DNA from: an uncultured delta proteobacterium
GTDB lineage: Bacteria > RBG-13-61-14 > DRUE01
Length of the DNA stretch: 8,521 nucleotides
NCBI GenBank assembly: GCA_903930515.1
Contig: CAIYYW010000010.1
Coordinates: 1 to 8,521 of the forward strand
Reading direction: 5' to 3'
The number at the start of each line of letters is the position of its first letter. Position 1 is the first letter of the stretch. Positions 2,139 through 8,521 of this stretch are shown one piece after another. The notes below the pieces were generated by a model, which had not been told where the DNA came from, did not search any database, and saw nothing but the letters and a program-made list of their open reading frames with translations. A program made the position numbers and the translations under genes.

Positions 2139-3510
2139 TCACATGAACTCGCGGAACGGGTCGCCGGTTTGCCGCCGGAATTGCCGGACCCGCTCGCGAA
2201 ATTTATCCACCAGGCCTTGAGATGATTTCTCGCCGGCAAGATTGGCCTTTTCATAAGGGTCGGTTTCTAGGTCGAACAGGAATTCAAACCCATCCAGATA
2301 TTGCCAGTATTTCCATTTCCCGCTCCGCAGCCCGCGCCAGGGTTTGGTGGTGTTGAGTTCACCCTGGCCTTCGCAAAAGATCGTCTCGCGCGGCGCCACA
2401 TTCTTTCCGGCCAGGACCGAAGTCAGGTCCATTCCCGAGAGCGGCTCCGGCCATTCGATCCCGGCCAGGCCGCAAAGAGTGGGGGACCAGGTCGAGGTGC
2501 GAAACCAGACGGTCATCCGCGGCCGGGGCCAGACCGGGACGGCTGAACACCAACGGCACATGAATATTTTCCTCATACATGGCCATGCCCTTGTTGACCA
2601 GGCCGTGCGAGCCGGCCATCTCGCCATGGTCCGAGGTATAGATGACCACGGTGTTCGCCATCTGGCCGGTGCGGTCAAGGGCCTCGAGCAAGGCGCCGAT
2701 CTGCCGGTCCATCAGTTCGGTGAAATAACAATAGTGGCGCAAATAGGCGATCCAGGCTTTTTCCGTTTTGGGAATCTGCGCGCTGGTCGCGGGGGTTTTT
2801 AGGACTGCGGCAAACGGCGGATAAATTTTCCCGGCATCGTCGCTGAAGTTGGGCGGAAGCGAGACCGGGTATTCCGGGATCTGGCCATAGAGGCTGTAGA
2901 GGGCCGGGTAGCAGATGTCATGCGGGTTGAGCACCGAGCAGGCGCAGAGCCAGGGCCGGGGAGAATTTTTCCGGCCCTCAATCCAGTCGGCGGCATGGGC
3001 GATGGTGCTCCGGTCGCGGCCCAGGCCGAAGAGCTGGCTGGAAATCCGCATCCGCTCGAAACCGTATTTCCTGCTCTCTCCGGAATTACCGATGCCCGCG
3101 CACAGATGCCATTTGCCGAACCAGGCGGTGGCATAGTCGGCCTGCGAAAACACCCGGCCGATGGTCGGCAGCTCCGGCGGGAGCGACGGGTTGTGGTTAT
3201 AGAAGTCGGTGTTGGTGAAAATGCCGGCCTGGTGCGGGTATTTGCCGGTGATCAGGGTGGCGCGGCTGGGCGAGCAGAGCGGGTAGCTGCAATAGGCGTT
3301 CTGGAATTCGATCCCGCTCCGGCGCAGCCGGTCCAGCGTGGGCCGCTTGAGCGGCGGAGTGTGCGTCGGATACCGGTCCTGGTCGGCGAGAATGATCAGC
3401 AGGTTGGGCCGGCCGGACGCGGCCGAACCTCTCCCGCCCAGACCCGCCAGCGAGAACCCCAGCCCGAGCGAGACCCCAGTTTTCAGGAAATCTCTCCGGC
3501 TGTTTTTCAT
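2139..3510 (-). CDS. Tat-exported C-type (S1 family) sulfatase, interrupted by a one-base frameshift
   Basis: A type I formylglycine sulfatase that would hydrolyse sulfate esters on glycans outside the cytoplasm. With the frameshift repaired it is about 456 residues, normal for the family. Seen: Tat signal MKNSRRDFLKTG with a hydrophobic stretch (about 13-25); LLIILADQDR with metal-binding D43; CSPSRATLITGKYP, where C79 would be converted to formylglycine, with R83 and K90 following; FGKWH (K133, H135); and YTSDHGEMAGSHG (D294, H295) with K307. The C-terminal sulfatase features (W-R-G-L-R-S-G-K-W-K, then LFDLETDPYEKANLA) lie in the next frame. The shift maps to the C5 run at 2481-2485, after LDLVP; one C fewer restores PTLCGLAGIEWP. 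As read, frame 1 ends at 2359. Start 3510 is chosen for the Tat signal; a longer reading from 3678 would put over 50 unlikely residues before it. Specific sulfated sugar unknown. Confidence 0.88.
2481..2485 (-). other. Frameshift site in the sulfatase: C5 homopolymer on the coding strand
   Basis: The coding strand reads CTG GTC CCC CAC TCT here, whereas CTG GTC CCC ACT CTT continues the conserved sulfatase sequence in the downstream frame. The event is one extra C. A sequencing or assembly error or a recent mutation is most likely. Programmed +1 slippage at CCC-C is possible in principle, but no nearby stop or stimulator is visible: the first frame runs on for about 40 codons. Confidence 0.85.
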
Positions 3511-3516
3511 TAGGGA

Positions 3517-3545
3517 ATTGTATAGTCGCGGGGAATCTTTGTCAA
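3517..3545 (-). promoter_or_regulatory. Sigma70-type promoter for the sulfatase, predicting a leaderless mRNA
   Basis: On the minus strand, TTGACA (3545-3540, a perfect -35) is followed after exactly 17 bases by TACAAT (3522-3517, five of six matches to the -10). Six bases separate the -10 from the sulfatase ATG at 3510, so the standard start of transcription falls on the A of ATG. There is no Shine-Dalgarno sequence before this ATG, which agrees with a leaderless message. The -35 overlaps the TGA stop (3542-3544) of the upstream degenerate ORF. Confidence 0.65.
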
Positions 3546-3736
3546 AGCGGCCGGATAAGGGCCATGGGCACTTCGACAACCGTTTCACCTGCTCCGATCT
3601 TGCCCGGGAGAAGGTTTTCGGCAAAGCCCACCTAGTTCCCGATGATCGGGTAGGTTCCCCGGTCTGTCTCGAAAACATCCGGTCAACCTCCGGCTATGCA
3701 GTCAAACTTTTTCGGAGTCACTTCTTTGATCTTCAT
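3542..3736 (-). pseudogene. Small ORF of unknown function with two in-frame stops (TGA and TAG)
   Basis: From ATG 3736, preceded by AGGAGGAAG, the frame reads MKIKEVTPKKFDCIAGG, stop TGA (3683-3685), PDVFETDRGTYPIIGN, stop TAG (3632-3634), VGFAENLLPGKIGAGETV then VEVPMALIRPL and a final TGA (3542-3544). All three segments read like natural protein and remain in one frame with no indel. Together they resemble a family of about 60-residue proteins that I recall from planctomycete-like genomes, with a C-x4-CP motif, ETDRGTY, an IIGK-like turn and a final VEVP..L. On that recollection TGA replaces a Cys codon and TAG a Lys codon, each one substitution away. Its start overlaps the stop of the preceding small ORF by 4 bp (ATGA). 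Most likely a recently decayed gene. Function unknown; the family link is from memory and unverified. Confidence 0.6.
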
Positions 3737-3942
3737 TTTTCTTCCTCCTTTTTGGAGATTATTGCGATGATTTCTCCCCTGGCCTCATCAGAGAGGTCAG
3801 GCCAAGCCTTTATGATAAGCTCCAGCTCGTGCGGAAGCCGAAGAAAATTTTGGCGCACGCGAATAGCACATTTGGAGCGCAAAGAAGTGTTCGGAAAGTG
3901 TAATGGAATTGTCATCAGGGCCGATACCTGAACCCTGCTCAT
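3733..3942 (-). CDS. Small hypothetical protein (about 69 aa), translationally coupled to the degenerate ORF
   Basis: I do not recognise a named function. The start at 3942 is chosen because AGGA lies 7 bases upstream; a longer reading from 4089 adds 49 residues of low-complexity, implausible sequence. The C-terminal half (FLRLPHELELIIKAWPDL then SDEARGEIIAIISKKEEEK) forms two amphipathic helices of the pattern LP.EL..II.AWP.L....+..I..I. I recall such tails on short proteins that sit beside integrases and paired small ORFs in planctomycete-like genomes, but that is memory, not a search. The stop overlaps the ATG of the next ORF (ATGA, 3733-3736), with AGGAGG inside the last codons, so the two were evidently co-translated. 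The N-terminal half looks poorly conserved, so this may itself be a remnant. Confidence 0.45.
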   Translation of the reverse strand: MSRVQVSALMTIPLHFPNTSLRSKCAIRVRQNFLRLPHELELIIKAWPDLSDEARGEIIAIISKKEEEK

Positions 3943-4170: not shown

Positions 4171-5091
4171 ATGAGAGAAAAAATTAAGGGACTGATCGCG
4201 GCGCCATACACCCCAATGAACGGCGACGGCTCCGTCAACCTCTCCGGCATCGGGCCTTATGCCCGGATGCTGGCGAAGAACGCTGTTGCCGGCGCTTTTG
4301 TCTGCGGGACCGCCGGCGAGAGTATGCTGCTTTCAATGGAGGAGCGGATGGCGGTACTGGAGGGGTGGGAGAAGGAGAGGCCGCCGGGATTCAAGGTGAT
4401 CGCGCATGTGGGCCACTTAAGCCTGCAGGAGGCCTGTCGGCTCGCGGCCCATGCAGAAAAAGTTGGGGTATGGGGCTTCGGCGCCATGCCGCCGGCTTTG
4501 TTTCGGGCCTCGCGGCTGGACGAACTGGTCGAGTTCCTCGCGCAACTGGCCGCAGCCGCGCCCAGCCTGCCGTTCTACTACTACCACATCCCCATTTTCA
4601 CCGGGGTCGACTTGGACATCTCCGAGTTGCTTTCCCGGCTCGGCCGCCGCGCGCCCAACCTGGCCGGGGTTAAGTTCACCTCAATGGACATGATGCAGTT
4701 TCGTCTCTGCTTGGAATTGGAGAACGGGCGCTTTGATATGGTCTCGGGCTACGACGAGATGATGCTCCCGGCGTTGGTGCTGGGAGCCACGGGAATGGTG
4801 GGCAGCACCTTCAACTACGCCGCGCCGCTCTACCGCCACCTCATCGAGGCCTTCACTGCGGGCGAGCTTAAGCTCGCGCAGGAACAGCAGCTAAAATGTT
4901 ACCATCTGGTCCGCTGCATCCGCTCCCAACCCGCGGATTTCCACGGCACCGCCAAGGCAATCATGAAACTGATCGGCGTCGACTGCGGCACAACGCGGCT
5001 GCCGATCCGGCCCTTCCCCGCTGATAAGGTAACGGAGCTGGAACGAGACCTCCGCGCCATCGGCTTTTTCGATTGGTGCTGCCGGGTCTGA
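4171..5091 (+). CDS. nanA: N-acetylneuraminate lyase (DapA/NanA superfamily)
   Basis: 306 residues, the full length of the family. It would cleave N-acetylneuraminate (sialic acid) to pyruvate and N-acetylmannosamine in the cytoplasm by a class I (Schiff base) aldolase mechanism. Seen: GTAGES at 46-51 (carboxylate-binding loop); YYYHIP with Y138 equivalent to E. coli Y137; GVKFTS with the Schiff-base K168; SGYDE (192-196); and GATGMVGSTFN (205-215). YHIP, GYDE and GST-x-N favour sialate lyase over dihydrodipicolinate synthase, and the YYYHIP region is closer to animal NPL than to E. coli NanA. The loop has Ala48 where Thr is usual (GSTGE or GTTGE). ATG 4171 follows GAGAG about 6-10 bases upstream. 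It is the only long plus-strand gene here and converges with the kelch-reductase-symporter operon, whose products fit the same pathway. Other 2-keto-3-deoxy acid aldolase activity is not excluded. Confidence 0.85.
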   Translation: MREKIKGLIAAPYTPMNGDGSVNLSGIGPYARMLAKNAVAGAFVCGTAGESMLLSMEERMAVLEGWEKERPPGFKVIAHVGHLSLQEACRLAAHAEKVGVWGFGAMPPALFRASRLDELVEFLAQLAAAAPSLPFYYYHIPIFTGVDLDISELLSRLGRRAPNLAGVKFTSMDMMQFRLCLELENGRFDMVSGYDEMMLPALVLGATGMVGSTFNYAAPLYRHLIEAFTAGELKLAQEQQLKCYHLVRCIRSQPADFHGTAKAIMKLIGVDCGTTRLPIRPFPADKVTELERDLRAIGFFDWCCRV

Positions 5092-5283
5092 CCGCGCAGT
5101 GATAAAAGAATTCAGCCTTTCCTATTGATGAGGGACCCTTTTGCGCCAGGGGTTGCACTTCGACAAAGGCTTGATCATCGTCATTCCCGCGACCAAACGG
5201 AGTAGGATCCGTGAATCGGGATCATCGCAAAAATCTATTATTTAATTGCGGGTGACCCCAGAAAAGACCGGAACTCCCAACCG
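5092..5283. other. Convergent intergenic spacer between nanA and the kelch gene
   Basis: Two genes end here facing each other. Candidate structures are weak: CGCAAAAAT (5226-5234) can pair with ATTT-AA-TTGCG (5240-5250) across a 5-base loop and a 2-base bulge, an AT-rich hairpin that could serve both directions. GATCATCG occurs twice in direct orientation (5173-5180, 5220-5227). No gene is visible. Confidence 0.35.
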
Positions 5284-6303
5284 CTACTGTCTGAGCGACA
5301 GCCTGCCCATCAGCAACCAAGACTGCCGGTGACGACCACGGTCCTCTCCGCCGGCCAGATAGATGCGGTCGCCCACCCGGGCCAGACCATAATCGATGAT
5401 CCCGGCGGGAAGCGGATCGGACCGCCAATACTTCTGCGTCTGAGAGTCAAAGACCAGCGTTTCGGAGAGAAACCCGTTCGGGTCGACCTTGGTCCCCGGC
5501 ATCATGCCGGCGAGCTTTTCCGCGGCGATAAATCCGCCCGGCATGATCAGGTAGCGGTCCCGGTAAGCAACCGCCCAGGCCCACTGTGTCGGCCAGGGCA
5601 GGTCTGCGATCCGCTCCCAGCGGTCGGCGCGAGGTTCATAACGGTAGGCCTCGGCTACGCCCCCGCCGAATGCGTAGATTTTTCTGCGAGCGGCGGCAGT
5701 AGCCACTCCGACGCGCAACGGCCCGGGCAAAGGCGCGCAGGCTGTCCAGACAGGCTGCCGGGAGGCGAGGTCGATCTTCCACATGTGGTTATTAGGCGCC
5801 GGGGGCGTGCCCGCGTCGCCGGCCACCAGAAAGACGGTGGAGCCGATCAGCGCGACCTGCATATTAGCTAGCTTTTCGGGCAGGGGGACAAAGGTCTCCC
5901 ACCGATAGCTCCCGCCGAAGCTTGAGAGCTTCCAGGTTTCGGCATTATTGGTCTTGTCTGCGGACTGCCCGCCGAAGATATAAATCGTATCGTGAAAAGT
6001 TGCCAAACAGGGATAAGCGGTCTTGATGGGGATGGGCGGAATCACGGTCCAGCTTTTTTCCTCCCGGCCCAGGCGATAAGCCTCCGCCGACCAAACCTTG
6101 TCCTTCTCCTCGATCCAATAGGTGCCTCCGGCAACAATCAGCCCGCGGCCCAGCCAGCCAAAGGCCGGCCCGCCCACGGCCTGCGGCAGGTCGCTGATGC
6201 GTTTCCATTCAATTTTTATCGGGCAAGGCCCATCTTTCGCGCGCGCGGTCGCGCCCGCAATGATGCATGCGCATAAGATGGCGATCAAGGTTCCAGATTT
6301 CAT
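5284..6303 (-). CDS. Secreted six-bladed kelch protein, N-acetylneuraminate epimerase/cyclically permuted mutarotase type
   Basis: 339 residues. The start at 6303 gives a Sec signal (MKSGTLIAIL..., cleavage near residues 20-23), and its ATG overlaps the reductase stop (ATGA). Kelch turns recur at about 50-residue spacing: VAGG (57-60), FGG (110-112), VAGD (160-163), FGGG (212-215), MPGG (254-257) and LAGG (316-319), giving six blades with W and Y at the usual positions, for instance RYEPRADRWERIADLP. NanM-type proteins have this architecture and convert alpha- to beta-N-acetylneuraminate in the periplasm; relatives sit beside SSS transporters and NanA in many bacteria. The order symporter, reductase, kelch with a lyase facing it supports that role. 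The substrate is inferred: kelch repeats alone do not prove catalysis, and I could not place the NanM catalytic residues with confidence. Confidence 0.72.
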   Translation of the reverse strand: MKSGTLIAILCACIIAGATARAKDGPCPIKIEWKRISDLPQAVGGPAFGWLGRGLIVAGGTYWIEEKDKVWSAEAYRLGREEKSWTVIPPIPIKTAYPCLATFHDTIYIFGGQSADKTNNAETWKLSSFGGSYRWETFVPLPEKLANMQVALIGSTVFLVAGDAGTPPAPNNHMWKIDLASRQPVWTACAPLPGPLRVGVATAAARRKIYAFGGGVAEAYRYEPRADRWERIADLPWPTQWAWAVAYRDRYLIMPGGFIAAEKLAGMMPGTKVDPNGFLSETLVFDSQTQKYWRSDPLPAGIIDYGLARVGDRIYLAGGEDRGRHRQSWLLMGRLSLRQ

Positions 6304-7211
6304 AAAACCCCGCCCATCAAATCTTCCAACTGCCCAATGCTTTTGACGCCCGCCACCACGGAGGTCACCCCGGGCTGCAAGAGCAGCCAACGGATTGCAT
6401 ACTGGGCGGGTTTAAGTCCCGAGCGCTTGCTCTCATCAACAAATGTCTTCAGCTTTTCATGCACGCCTTCATCCATTTTCAGCCACTTGGGATGTTCCAC
6501 CCCCCGGCTGCCAGGAGGGGGAGGCTGATCGGCCTGATATTTCCCGGTAAGGAGTCCGCCCTGCAACGGCTGGTAGGGTGTGATTGCTATATTATTTGCG
6601 CGGCAAACCTGCAGGTATCCCTTTTCGCTTCCGCGCTCCAGCCAGTTGTAGAGGGGCTGGGCAACAACCGGAGCCGGAAGGTTGCCGGTTTTGCAGACAT
6701 TGAGCAATTGTTCGACCTGCGCCGCCTCAAAGTTTGAAAAACCCCAGTGCCTTATTTTGCCTTCTTTGACCAAGTCGGCCATTGTTCCGACCGATTCTTC
6801 AAGCGGCGTTTCCGGGTCGGCCTTGTGCAGTTCATAGAAGTCAAAATAATCTGTGCGGAGTCTTGCCAGGCTGGCGTTCACCTGGTGGAGGATGTGTTTT
6901 CTGCCTAGTCCGGTCCCTTCATATCCGGCGCCTCCGATTTGGTTGCCCACTTTGCTGGTGACCACCGCTTTGTCCCGCCTGCCCTGCAAAGCGGTTCCCA
7001 GAATGCTTTCCCCCACGCCGCCGGGAGAGCCGAGGAAACGCTTGTATCCTTCGTAGATGTCGGCAGTGTCAATAAAGTTGATTCCGTTATCCATCGCCCA
7101 ATGCACGATCTTGACGGCTTCTGATTCGGCCACCGGGGTGCCGAAGGTCATGGTCCCCAGACAGATGGGCGAGACCTCGATCCCGGTTCCGGGTATTTTA
7201 TTGCGTTTCAT
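6300..7211 (-). CDS. Aldo/keto reductase (YajO/Gpr-like), C-terminus short
   Basis: 303 residues; an NAD(P)H-dependent TIM-barrel oxidoreductase acting on a carbonyl or sugar. The catalytic tetrad is complete: D48 and Y53 (FIDTADIYEGY), K87 (VVTSKVG) and H129 (YELHKAD). GKIRHWGFSNF (151-161), a QPLYNWLER region and TPYQPLQGGLLTGKY (211-225) are family hallmarks, as is SVVAGVKSIGQLE (284-296) of the cofactor-phosphate loop. The protein stops about 25 residues early, just after QLEDLMGGVL, where relatives continue with a helix rich in Asn, Leu and acidic residues; the kelch ATG overlaps its stop. Its own ATG overlaps the symporter stop. Both junctions are ATGA, implying translational coupling. 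The substrate is unknown: a sialic-acid derivative, or L-fucose from the nearby fucosidase, are both untested ideas. Confidence 0.88.
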   Translation of the reverse strand: MKRNKIPGTGIEVSPICLGTMTFGTPVAESEAVKIVHWAMDNGINFIDTADIYEGYKRFLGSPGGVGESILGTALQGRRDKAVVTSKVGNQIGGAGYEGTGLGRKHILHQVNASLARLRTDYFDFYELHKADPETPLEESVGTMADLVKEGKIRHWGFSNFEAAQVEQLLNVCKTGNLPAPVVAQPLYNWLERGSEKGYLQVCRANNIAITPYQPLQGGLLTGKYQADQPPPPGSRGVEHPKWLKMDEGVHEKLKTFVDESKRSGLKPAQYAIRWLLLQPGVTSVVAGVKSIGQLEDLMGGVL

Positions 7212-8521
7212 AGCTTCCCCTTTCTCCAGTCTTCCACGAATTTCCAGGCGGTGAGGCTCTTGTCTGCCGGCTCGCCGGACAAAACCAGGCTGGCGAGATA
7301 GCTGACCACCAGGCTGGTGAGCACCGAGCAGGGCATGTAAAAAGCCCAGTGCAGCTTTTGCCCGCCGAAGTCGAGATTCATGATCACCAGCGTGGTGGCT
7401 ATGCCGGCGATCGCGCCGACCAGCCAGCTCTTGAAATTAACCCGCTGCGTGAGTACGCCCAGCACGAACAGGGCCAGAATCGGTCCGTTGAACAGGCCCA
7501 GCACCATAGTCGCGGCCTTCAGGATGTGCTCGATGCCGGCGACATAAAAAGCGATCGCGGTTCCGACCACGCCGATCACCACCGTGAACATGCGGCCGAG
7601 CCGGACGCTGCCATGCTCGGTCATCGGCTCTTTATGGAGCGGCCGGACAAAATCGTTGACCAGCACGGTGGACATGGAATTGATCCCCGAGTCCACGCTG
7701 GAAATGGCCGCAGCGAAAATGCCGGAGATGGCCAGCCCGGAAATGCCATTGGGCAGCACGGTCATGATGTAGTAGGGCAGGAGTTTGTCGCTCGTGATCG
7801 CCCCGGCCGGGAACTGCCGGTAATAGGCGAACAGCCCGAGGCCGATAAACCCGAGCAGCGAGAACATCATTACATCCACGCTGGAATTGAACGCCACCGC
7901 CCGGGCCATGCCCCCGAACGACTTGGCCGACAACAGCCGCTGCACACCGACCTGGTCGCACCCGTAGTCCTGCATGAAATTGAAAAAGTACGACAGCGCG
8001 AACGCCGGCACGCACGCCGCAAACCAGCTGAACTGCCAGCTGAACAGGTGATGGTTTTCCGCGGCCACCCGCAAAATCCCCGCCGCGCCCCCGTCCACCT
8101 TCATGACCAGGCTGACCCCGACGATGACGGCGCCGCCCACCAGAATGATAAACTGGACCGCGTCAGTCAGCACCACGGCCTGGAGACCGCCGGCCGAGGT
8201 GTAGAGCGTGGCTACCAGGCCCATGATCAGGATGGTCCTGACCAGGTCCATGCCGGTCACGACCGAAAGCGCCAGGGCCGGCGCATAGATCACCGCGCCC
8301 AGCCAGCCCATCCGCGCGAGCAGGAACAGTCCGGAAACGCCGTAGCGCGCCGAGCGGCCGTAGCGTTTGAAGATGTATTCATAGGAGGTGGTCACTCCCA
8401 GCCGCCGGTACAAGGGTAGAAACATGATGATTATGAAGGGCGCCACCACCGGGCTCAGGTAATAGCCGGCCAGGAGCGAAATGTTCTCCTTCACCACCGT
8501 GCCCGGCATGCCCATGTACGA
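7208..8521 (-). CDS. Sodium:solute symporter (SSS/SLC5 family), N-terminus outside the window
   Basis: 437 residues are visible; the frame is open to the right edge (SYMGMPGTVV...), so the first one to two membrane helices are missing. Na+-coupled uptake of a sugar or sugar acid across the inner membrane. Seen: VTTSYEYIFKRYG (43-55 of the visible part), GGLQAVVLTDAVQ (111-123), a DQVGVQR motif (189-195), and AAAISSVDSGINSMSTVLVND (270-290), whose Ser pair corresponds to the Na2 sodium site of vSGLT-type proteins. About ten or more hydrophobic helices follow in the LeuT-like order. The tail ends in a charged SLTAWKFVEDWRKGKL segment. First gene of a coupled operon with the reductase (ATGA overlap) and the kelch protein. 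SSS-type sialic acid transporters often neighbour nanA and mutarotase genes, so sialate or a similar acid is the favoured substrate, but the family also carries hexoses, myo-inositol and others. Confidence 0.9.
   Translation of the reverse strand, partial: SYMGMPGTVVKENISLLAGYYLSPVVAPFIIIMFLPLYRRLGVTTSYEYIFKRYGRSARYGVSGLFLLARMGWLGAVIYAPALALSVVTGMDLVRTILIMGLVATLYTSAGGLQAVVLTDAVQFIILVGGAVIVGVSLVMKVDGGAAGILRVAAENHHLFSWQFSWFAACVPAFALSYFFNFMQDYGCDQVGVQRLLSAKSFGGMARAVAFNSSVDVMMFSLLGFIGLGLFAYYRQFPAGAITSDKLLPYYIMTVLPNGISGLAISGIFAAAISSVDSGINSMSTVLVNDFVRPLHKEPMTEHGSVRLGRMFTVVIGVVGTAIAFYVAGIEHILKAATMVLGLFNGPILALFVLGVLTQRVNFKSWLVGAIAGIATTLVIMNLDFGGQKLHWAFYMPCSVLTSLVVSYLASLVLSGEPADKSLTAWKFVEDWRKGKL

Follow-up and report, generated by a model that had tools for sequence, protein, structure and literature searches.

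The stretch of DNA analyzed here (the window, 8,521 bp) is the complete contig C10 of genome G000, that of an uncultured delta proteobacterium (3.65 Mb in 401 contigs, 93.5% complete), and is very likely the distal portion of a locus for scavenging sialate or nonulosonate; the proximal genes of this locus appear to lie at the end of a second contig, C146. The locus belongs in all probability to the class that scavenges sialate, as a variant to which a DegT/DnrJ/EryC1-family aminotransferase (DegT) and an aldo/keto reductase (AKR) have been added. The best explanation of the whole, to which we assign a probability of about 0.5, is a sialate locus in which the DegT and AKR enzymes form a functional unit; the narrower proposition, that the two are a functional part of the locus and act on a nonulosonate or its product, is evenly balanced. 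The locus may hold an unrecognized route for the breakdown of sialic acid, a sugar acid found at the tips of many animal glycans.

Reconstruction of the locus

Genes were called from open reading frames and Pfam profile matches, and overlaps were read from the sequence; on this basis the positions of a lyase, a kelch protein, an AKR and an SSS-family symporter, with two ATGA overlaps, are as a sequence-only reading of the window had given them (Table 1). That reading also had the lyase facing an operon of the other three genes: the lyase is indeed encoded on the opposed strand, but the arrangement is convergent, tail to tail, with 192 bp between, and the lyase therefore has no share in the operon transcript. 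The SSS gene lacks its 5' part because C10 ends inside it. C146 was found by searching G000 with one joined query, consisting of the N-terminus of a homologous symporter, an AGE epimerase and a sialidase, which matched ten places, one by the sialidase and nine by the symporter start. Of these nine, the strongest lies where C146 ends on the right, in a short open frame with 47% identity to the window's SSS subfamily, and among the ten genome matches only C146 has a truncated SSS start at a contig end. The last residues encoded by C146 (TSAV) and the first of the window (SYMGMPG) align exactly to TSAVTYLGLPG of a homologue, and the two contig ends have TC in common, so that the SSS reading frame is kept across the joint. 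These features argue strongly for a joint that restores one SSS gene.

In the joined order, a sialidase gene stands 278 bp upstream of a run of genes on one strand that encode a GntR-type regulator, DegT, SSS, AKR and the kelch protein, with the lyase convergent to them. GntR and DegT are separated by 20 bp, as are DegT and SSS, and two 4-bp ATGA overlaps follow; thus the run from GntR to kelch looks like a single operon.

Probable sialate genes

The solved structures nearest to the lyase are N-acetylneuraminate lyases (6h4e, 5afd and human NPL 6arh; E values 1e-62 to 5e-58), and the top 35 chains in a phmmer search are all named N-acetylneuraminate lyase (best 9.7e-63), with DapA ranking lower. 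The N-acetylneuraminate lyase models of NCBIfam also come first, yet score under their curated cut-offs, and the identity to E. coli NanA is 27%. By alignment, the lyase retains the catalytic tyrosine (YYYHIP), the Schiff-base lysine (GVKFTS), the glycerol-chain Asp/Glu motif (GYDE) and the GST.N motif (GSTFN), and its S/T-T-G-E carboxylate-binding motif reads GTAGE; the position of NanA Thr48, which is Ala here, is Asn in some lyase homologues from sialate loci. Thirty related lyase loci contain a sialidase in 18 cases (BLAST), a member of the AGE epimerase family in 11 and of the kelch/SSS family in 13.

The exported kelch protein has residues Glu320 and Arg326, which align at equal spacing with Glu209 and Arg215 of NanM (E228 and R234 of the precursor), a pair that we take to be catalytic in NanM, and the pair is conserved without exception in an alignment of eight kelch proteins from sialate loci. 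An AlphaFold2 model (pLDDT 85) is confidently a kelch propeller. Many kelch propellers tie in a fold search with this model (Z 30–32.5; NanM, 2uvk, Z 30.2), and the fold comparison therefore has no power to tell NanM from other kelch proteins. The NanM/YjhT models of NCBIfam give 44 bits against cut-offs of 256–416, in a match that is partial and circularly permuted. The protein may at most work like NanM, and membership of the NanM family is not claimed.

The sialidase on C146 has a signal peptide, a FRIP motif and Asp-boxes, and is at most 49% identical to its best relatives among the sialidases of other loci. The best NCBIfam family for the GntR regulator is NanR (4e-24, under its curated cut-off), and BLAST matches it best to GntR genes from sialate loci of Bacteroidota. 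Sialate-type utilization, proposed from the window, is strongly supported by three genes of C146, those for the sialidase, the NanR-like regulator and DegT, together with the sialidase/AGE/kelch/SSS context of related lyases.

The symporter was earlier counted among the classic sialate parts, which does not hold at the level of its subfamily. It is a Na+-coupled SSS symporter; the equivalents of the Na2-site serines Ser342 and Ser343 and of Asp182 are kept, and Ser345 is Asp. The Neu5Ac (N-acetylneuraminate) site of SiaT comprises Ser60, Thr63, Gln82 and Arg135 (PMC5931594). In the joined sequence Ser60 is kept and Thr63 is Ser, with Arg135 replaced by Trp, Gln82 by Tyr, Asn247 by Phe and Gln250 by Asp; Trp occupies the Arg135 position in 21/21 alignable homologues of the subfamily, and Arg135 is retained in the alignable SSS proteins of sialate context. 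Identity as SiaT is ruled out by these pocket residues (Arg135 to Trp, Gln82 to Tyr) and by subfamily descent. The subfamily occurs in 28 of 387 Verrucomicrobiota genomes amid varied non-sialate genes, and neither lyase nor kelch nor AKR genes were found within 7 kb of the SSS gene in the 21 homologous loci that could be placed, of 28 fetched. These Verrucomicrobiota symporters (L138–L165) have the Trp, an MQDYG motif and one copy per matched genome, and their neighbors include an iron alcohol dehydrogenase with ribulose-phosphate epimerase, CorA/PhoH, DapB, Dus and FtsA. The window's symporter could carry sialate in another mode, or carry other cargo, and an SSS gene next to nanA is by itself insufficient to infer a SiaT-type transporter.

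The aminotransferase and reductase

The pyridoxal phosphate-binding lysine of DegT is present (SFHTQKNITTLGEGG, matching the pattern SF..QK..T.GEGG). The best model is PseC, at 221 bits against a cut-off of 423.5, and the product of the enzyme is therefore not assigned. Identity as KdnA was considered and set aside, KdnA not being among the solved relatives at 1e-40. The AKR has an intact tetrad (Asp48/Tyr53/Lys87/His129) that is invariant across its clade of four (the window, one copy in G809, G602 and G745; tree support 97/92), all four of which have a short C-terminus in common. Its close relatives are few: the 392 Planctomycetota genomes include 2 with a match at 1e-75 or better, and the 387 Verrucomicrobiota genomes include 3 with a match better than 1e-60; no homologue was found at 1e-55 in the two other genomes of the host phylum.

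A triplet of SSS, AKR and kelch genes conserved beside nanA had been suggested, but the neighborhood check returned an AKR in 0 of 30 lyase loci, and close relatives of the AKR likewise have no kelch or SSS gene beside them. What survives of the proposal that the AKR belongs to the module is that it is not a random neighbor, since elsewhere, too, members of its clade are accompanied by this DegT subfamily and by either NeuB or a lyase of the DHDPS family. Members of that subfamily, 44–46% identical to the DegT of C146, are encoded in G602, G745 and G586. The gene order in G602 is GntR-DegT-UROD-NeuB-AKR (L101:9387-16818); the NeuB has no SAF domain match, the UROD is URO-D-like, an MTTB gene adjoins the operon, and no cytidylyltransferase was seen beside NeuB. 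In G745, one contig end carries DegT, DAO (an FAD oxidoreductase) and an apparent lyase start, in this order, and another contig starts with the C-terminus of a DHDPS-family lyase directly before the AKR, which is consistent with one operon, DegT-DAO-lyase-AKR. In G586 the DegT gene and an overlapping iron alcohol dehydrogenase gene belong to a cluster for nonulosonate biosynthesis that also holds two NeuB genes and cytidylyltransferase-type genes (L181:3725-17804). The DegT subfamily thus accompanies nonulosonate genes, plus AKR or another alcohol dehydrogenase. The AKR clade and the DegT subfamily are each found in 3 of 387 Verrucomicrobiota genomes, two of which are common to both; the hypergeometric probability of this co-occurrence is 1.2e-4, a figure not relied on because the genomes are related.

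Proposed pathway

The sialidase would act outside the cytoplasm to release sialic acid, whose anomers the exported kelch protein would equilibrate; the symporter would import the acid, and the lyase would cleave it to pyruvate and an N-acyl-mannosamine-type sugar, as judged from the families of these proteins. The pairing of DegT and AKR suggests that they act in sequence, DegT exchanging an amino for a carbonyl group and AKR reducing the carbonyl to a hydroxyl group, or the reverse, on either the sugar acid or the lyase product. Deamination followed by reduction is the likely direction in a scavenging locus, and the reverse is as likely in NeuB clusters. The pair may replace the step from N-acetylmannosamine to N-acetylglucosamine, or may process a sialic acid variant of the amino-sugar type.

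The described bacterial sialate routes proceed by NanA or NanL, then NanE or an AGE epimerase, then NagA and NagB (PMC10017367). Single-sequence queries of G000 returned no match to NanQ, to NanE (at 1e-6) or to an AGE epimerase (at E≤1), but the genome does encode NagA, ROK kinases and a NagB-like protein; this combination leaves room for DegT-AKR chemistry on the lyase product. The absence of an epimerase from a fragmented genome, by queries of this kind, is weak evidence, and it is rather doubtful that DegT and AKR turn the lyase's amino-sugar product (or the nonulosonate itself) into a neutral sugar, the amino group becoming first a carbonyl and then a hydroxyl, by a sialate route free of NanE and AGE epimerase. 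The literature searched yielded no system in which sialate catabolism or a nonulosonate cluster involves an AKR or an aminotransferase. If the proposal is true, the locus encodes a route without an epimerase, either a third one for sialate or one for an amino variant of sialic acid; it comes from a phylum sampled by three genomes only, and its parts are open to direct expression and assay.

Several points weigh against the DegT-AKR pair as a functional unit of a sialate locus. The SSS pocket is, by its residues, unlike that of SiaT. NanE or an AGE epimerase could sit in the unassembled 7% or so of G000 or be missed at low identity. The joint between C146 and C10 is inferred, with no spanning read. 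The two lyase ends in G745 match weakly (23 and 4 bits by hmmsearch, each with a single sequence), and the middle of this lyase is missing, a search for it having returned no contig. G602 and G745 represent a single verrucomicrobial lineage (their DegT proteins are 69% identical and their AKRs are sisters), and the link between DegT and AKR therefore amounts to about two independent cases. Finally, the nearest relative of the AKR (G809, 53% identity) has no adjoining DegT or nonulosonate genes, and the same is true in G221 and G422.

These unrelated surroundings favor an alternative, which we consider somewhat unlikely, in which the locus is for sialate but carries AKR and DegT only as passengers: a carbonyl reductase of general function and a sugar aminotransferase, both belonging to other pathways and co-transcribed here by chance. 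AKRs of this family are promiscuous, and AKR and DegT are each found in 0 of the 30 lyase loci; but ATGA overlaps flank the AKR on both sides, and the AKR clade and DegT subfamily, both rare, reappear in the company of a nonulosonate synthase and a DHDPS-family lyase. It is improbable that the module serves Kdn, a Kdo-like acid, legionaminic or pseudaminic acid instead of Neu5Ac, with DegT and AKR treating the amino or hydroxyl group of that acid. The departure of the SSS pocket from SiaT, the Ala at lyase position 48, the placement of the DegT subfamily with an iron alcohol dehydrogenase in the G586 cluster and the Kdn-specific lyase of Sphingobacterium, known through a citation in PMC10017367, would all fit such a substrate, but the GH33-type sialidase, the NanR-like regulator and the NanM residues indicate Neu5Ac-like substrates, and the lyase groups with the lyases of sialidase/AGE loci. 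The suggestion that the AKR does the work of NanOx/YjhC, converting 2,7-anhydro- or 2,3-dehydro-sialate to free sialate, gains something from the placement of an oxidoreductase between transporter and mutarotase and from Gfo/Idh genes in the related lyase loci L065 and L066, but is very improbable: NanOx, of the Gfo/Idh family, binds NAD+ tightly and recycles it internally via a 4-keto intermediate (PMC7535918), which makes the analogy chemically poor, and the AKR, of an unrelated fold, matches profiles of the AKR family only and not Gfo/Idh/MocA, belongs to a clade with no link to NanOx-type loci, leaves its DegT partner unexplained and accompanies a sialidase that is not assigned to the anhydro-forming kind.

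Other features

Table 1. Features of the window and of the adjoining end of C146 (L176).
Feature	Position	Strand	Basis
NanA/NPL-type N-acetylneuraminate lyase, 306 aa	4171..5091	+	PF00701 (DHDPS family) 4e-53
NanM-like kelch protein, 339 aa, signal peptide	5284..6303	-	PF24996 NANM 7e-16, over gathering; start ATG at 6303
ATGA overlap, AKR stop / kelch start	6300..6303	-	sequence, TCAT on + strand
AKR, 303 aa	6300..7211	-	PF00248 5e-65
ATGA overlap, SSS stop / AKR start	7208..7211	-	sequence, TCAT on + strand
SSS-family symporter, residues ~64 onward	7208..8521	-	PF00474 3e-34
134-bp repeat copy	3757..3890		second copy, 82% identical, C146, L176:15332-15465
Sialidase, GH33-type, secreted	C146, L176:15815-16903	same as SSS start, upstream	BNR_2 1e-39
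GntR-FCD regulator, NanR-like	C146, L176:17182-17937	same as SSS start	NCBIfam NanR 4e-24, under cut-off
DegT/DnrJ/EryC1-family aminotransferase	C146, L176:17958-19145	same as SSS start	PF01041 1e-87
SSS start, ~63 codons	C146, L176:19166-19353	same once joined	in-frame junction

The C146 copy of the 134-bp repeat stands just before the sialidase and has the same orientation as the window copy once the contigs are joined; with one copy outside each end, the cluster is bracketed. No further copy was found in the 215 kb of G000 searched, and the pair is a possible trace of cluster mobility.

The remaining genes of the window are all on the minus strand. They encode an alpha-L-fucosidase-family protein (PF01120; 3-1046), cut by the contig end; a TPR-like protein (1145-2014) with a borderline match, just below cut-off, to the TRAP T-component (TAtT); and a sulfatase split over two frames (2139-3678; Pfam Sulfatase in 2359-3678, SGSH_C in 2139-2678), the split being either a frameshift or an assembly error.

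Comparison with known systems

The E. coli nanATEK-yhcH (nanQ) operon and nanM resemble this locus in a NanA-family lyase, a NanR-like GntR/FCD regulator and an exported kelch protein with the Glu/Arg pair. They differ from it in that NanE and NanQ were not found here, SSS replaces NanT, and sialidase, DegT and AKR are added; the window's lyase, moreover, resembles NPL-type enzymes more closely than it does E. coli NanA. The nan loci of Bacteroides fragilis and other Bacteroidota (NanL, NanE-II, which is an AGE epimerase, RokA and sialidase) have related lyases, GntR regulators, sialidases and NanM-type kelch proteins, but G000 has no AGE match at the threshold given above and the cluster has no SusC/D, and DegT and AKR are again additions.

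In Verrucomicrobiota, Roseibacillus loci of lyase, SSS-kelch fusion, AGE epimerase and sulfatase (L067:1316-4036, L068, L069, L071) combine a lyase with SSS and kelch, as here, the NanM-type kelch and SiaT-like SSS being fused in a protein of ~910 aa beside nanA and the epimerase; unlike the window, these loci keep Arg135 in the SSS and have no AKR or DegT. The NanOx/YjhC pathway for 2,7-anhydro-Neu5Ac likewise places an oxidoreductase beside sialate genes, but one of a different enzyme superfamily and chemistry from the AKR. In the formation of 8-amino-Kdo by Shewanella, KdnA and KdnB, a DegT-family aminotransferase and an alcohol dehydrogenase, act on a 2-keto-3-deoxy sugar acid. The DegT and iron alcohol dehydrogenase of G586 are reminiscent of this pair, KdnB (5k8c) being a distant match only (7e-21) to the latter. 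KdnA/KdnB and the genes described here both combine DegT with a reductase, but here the reductase is an AKR instead of an iron alcohol dehydrogenase, and the context is one of scavenging.

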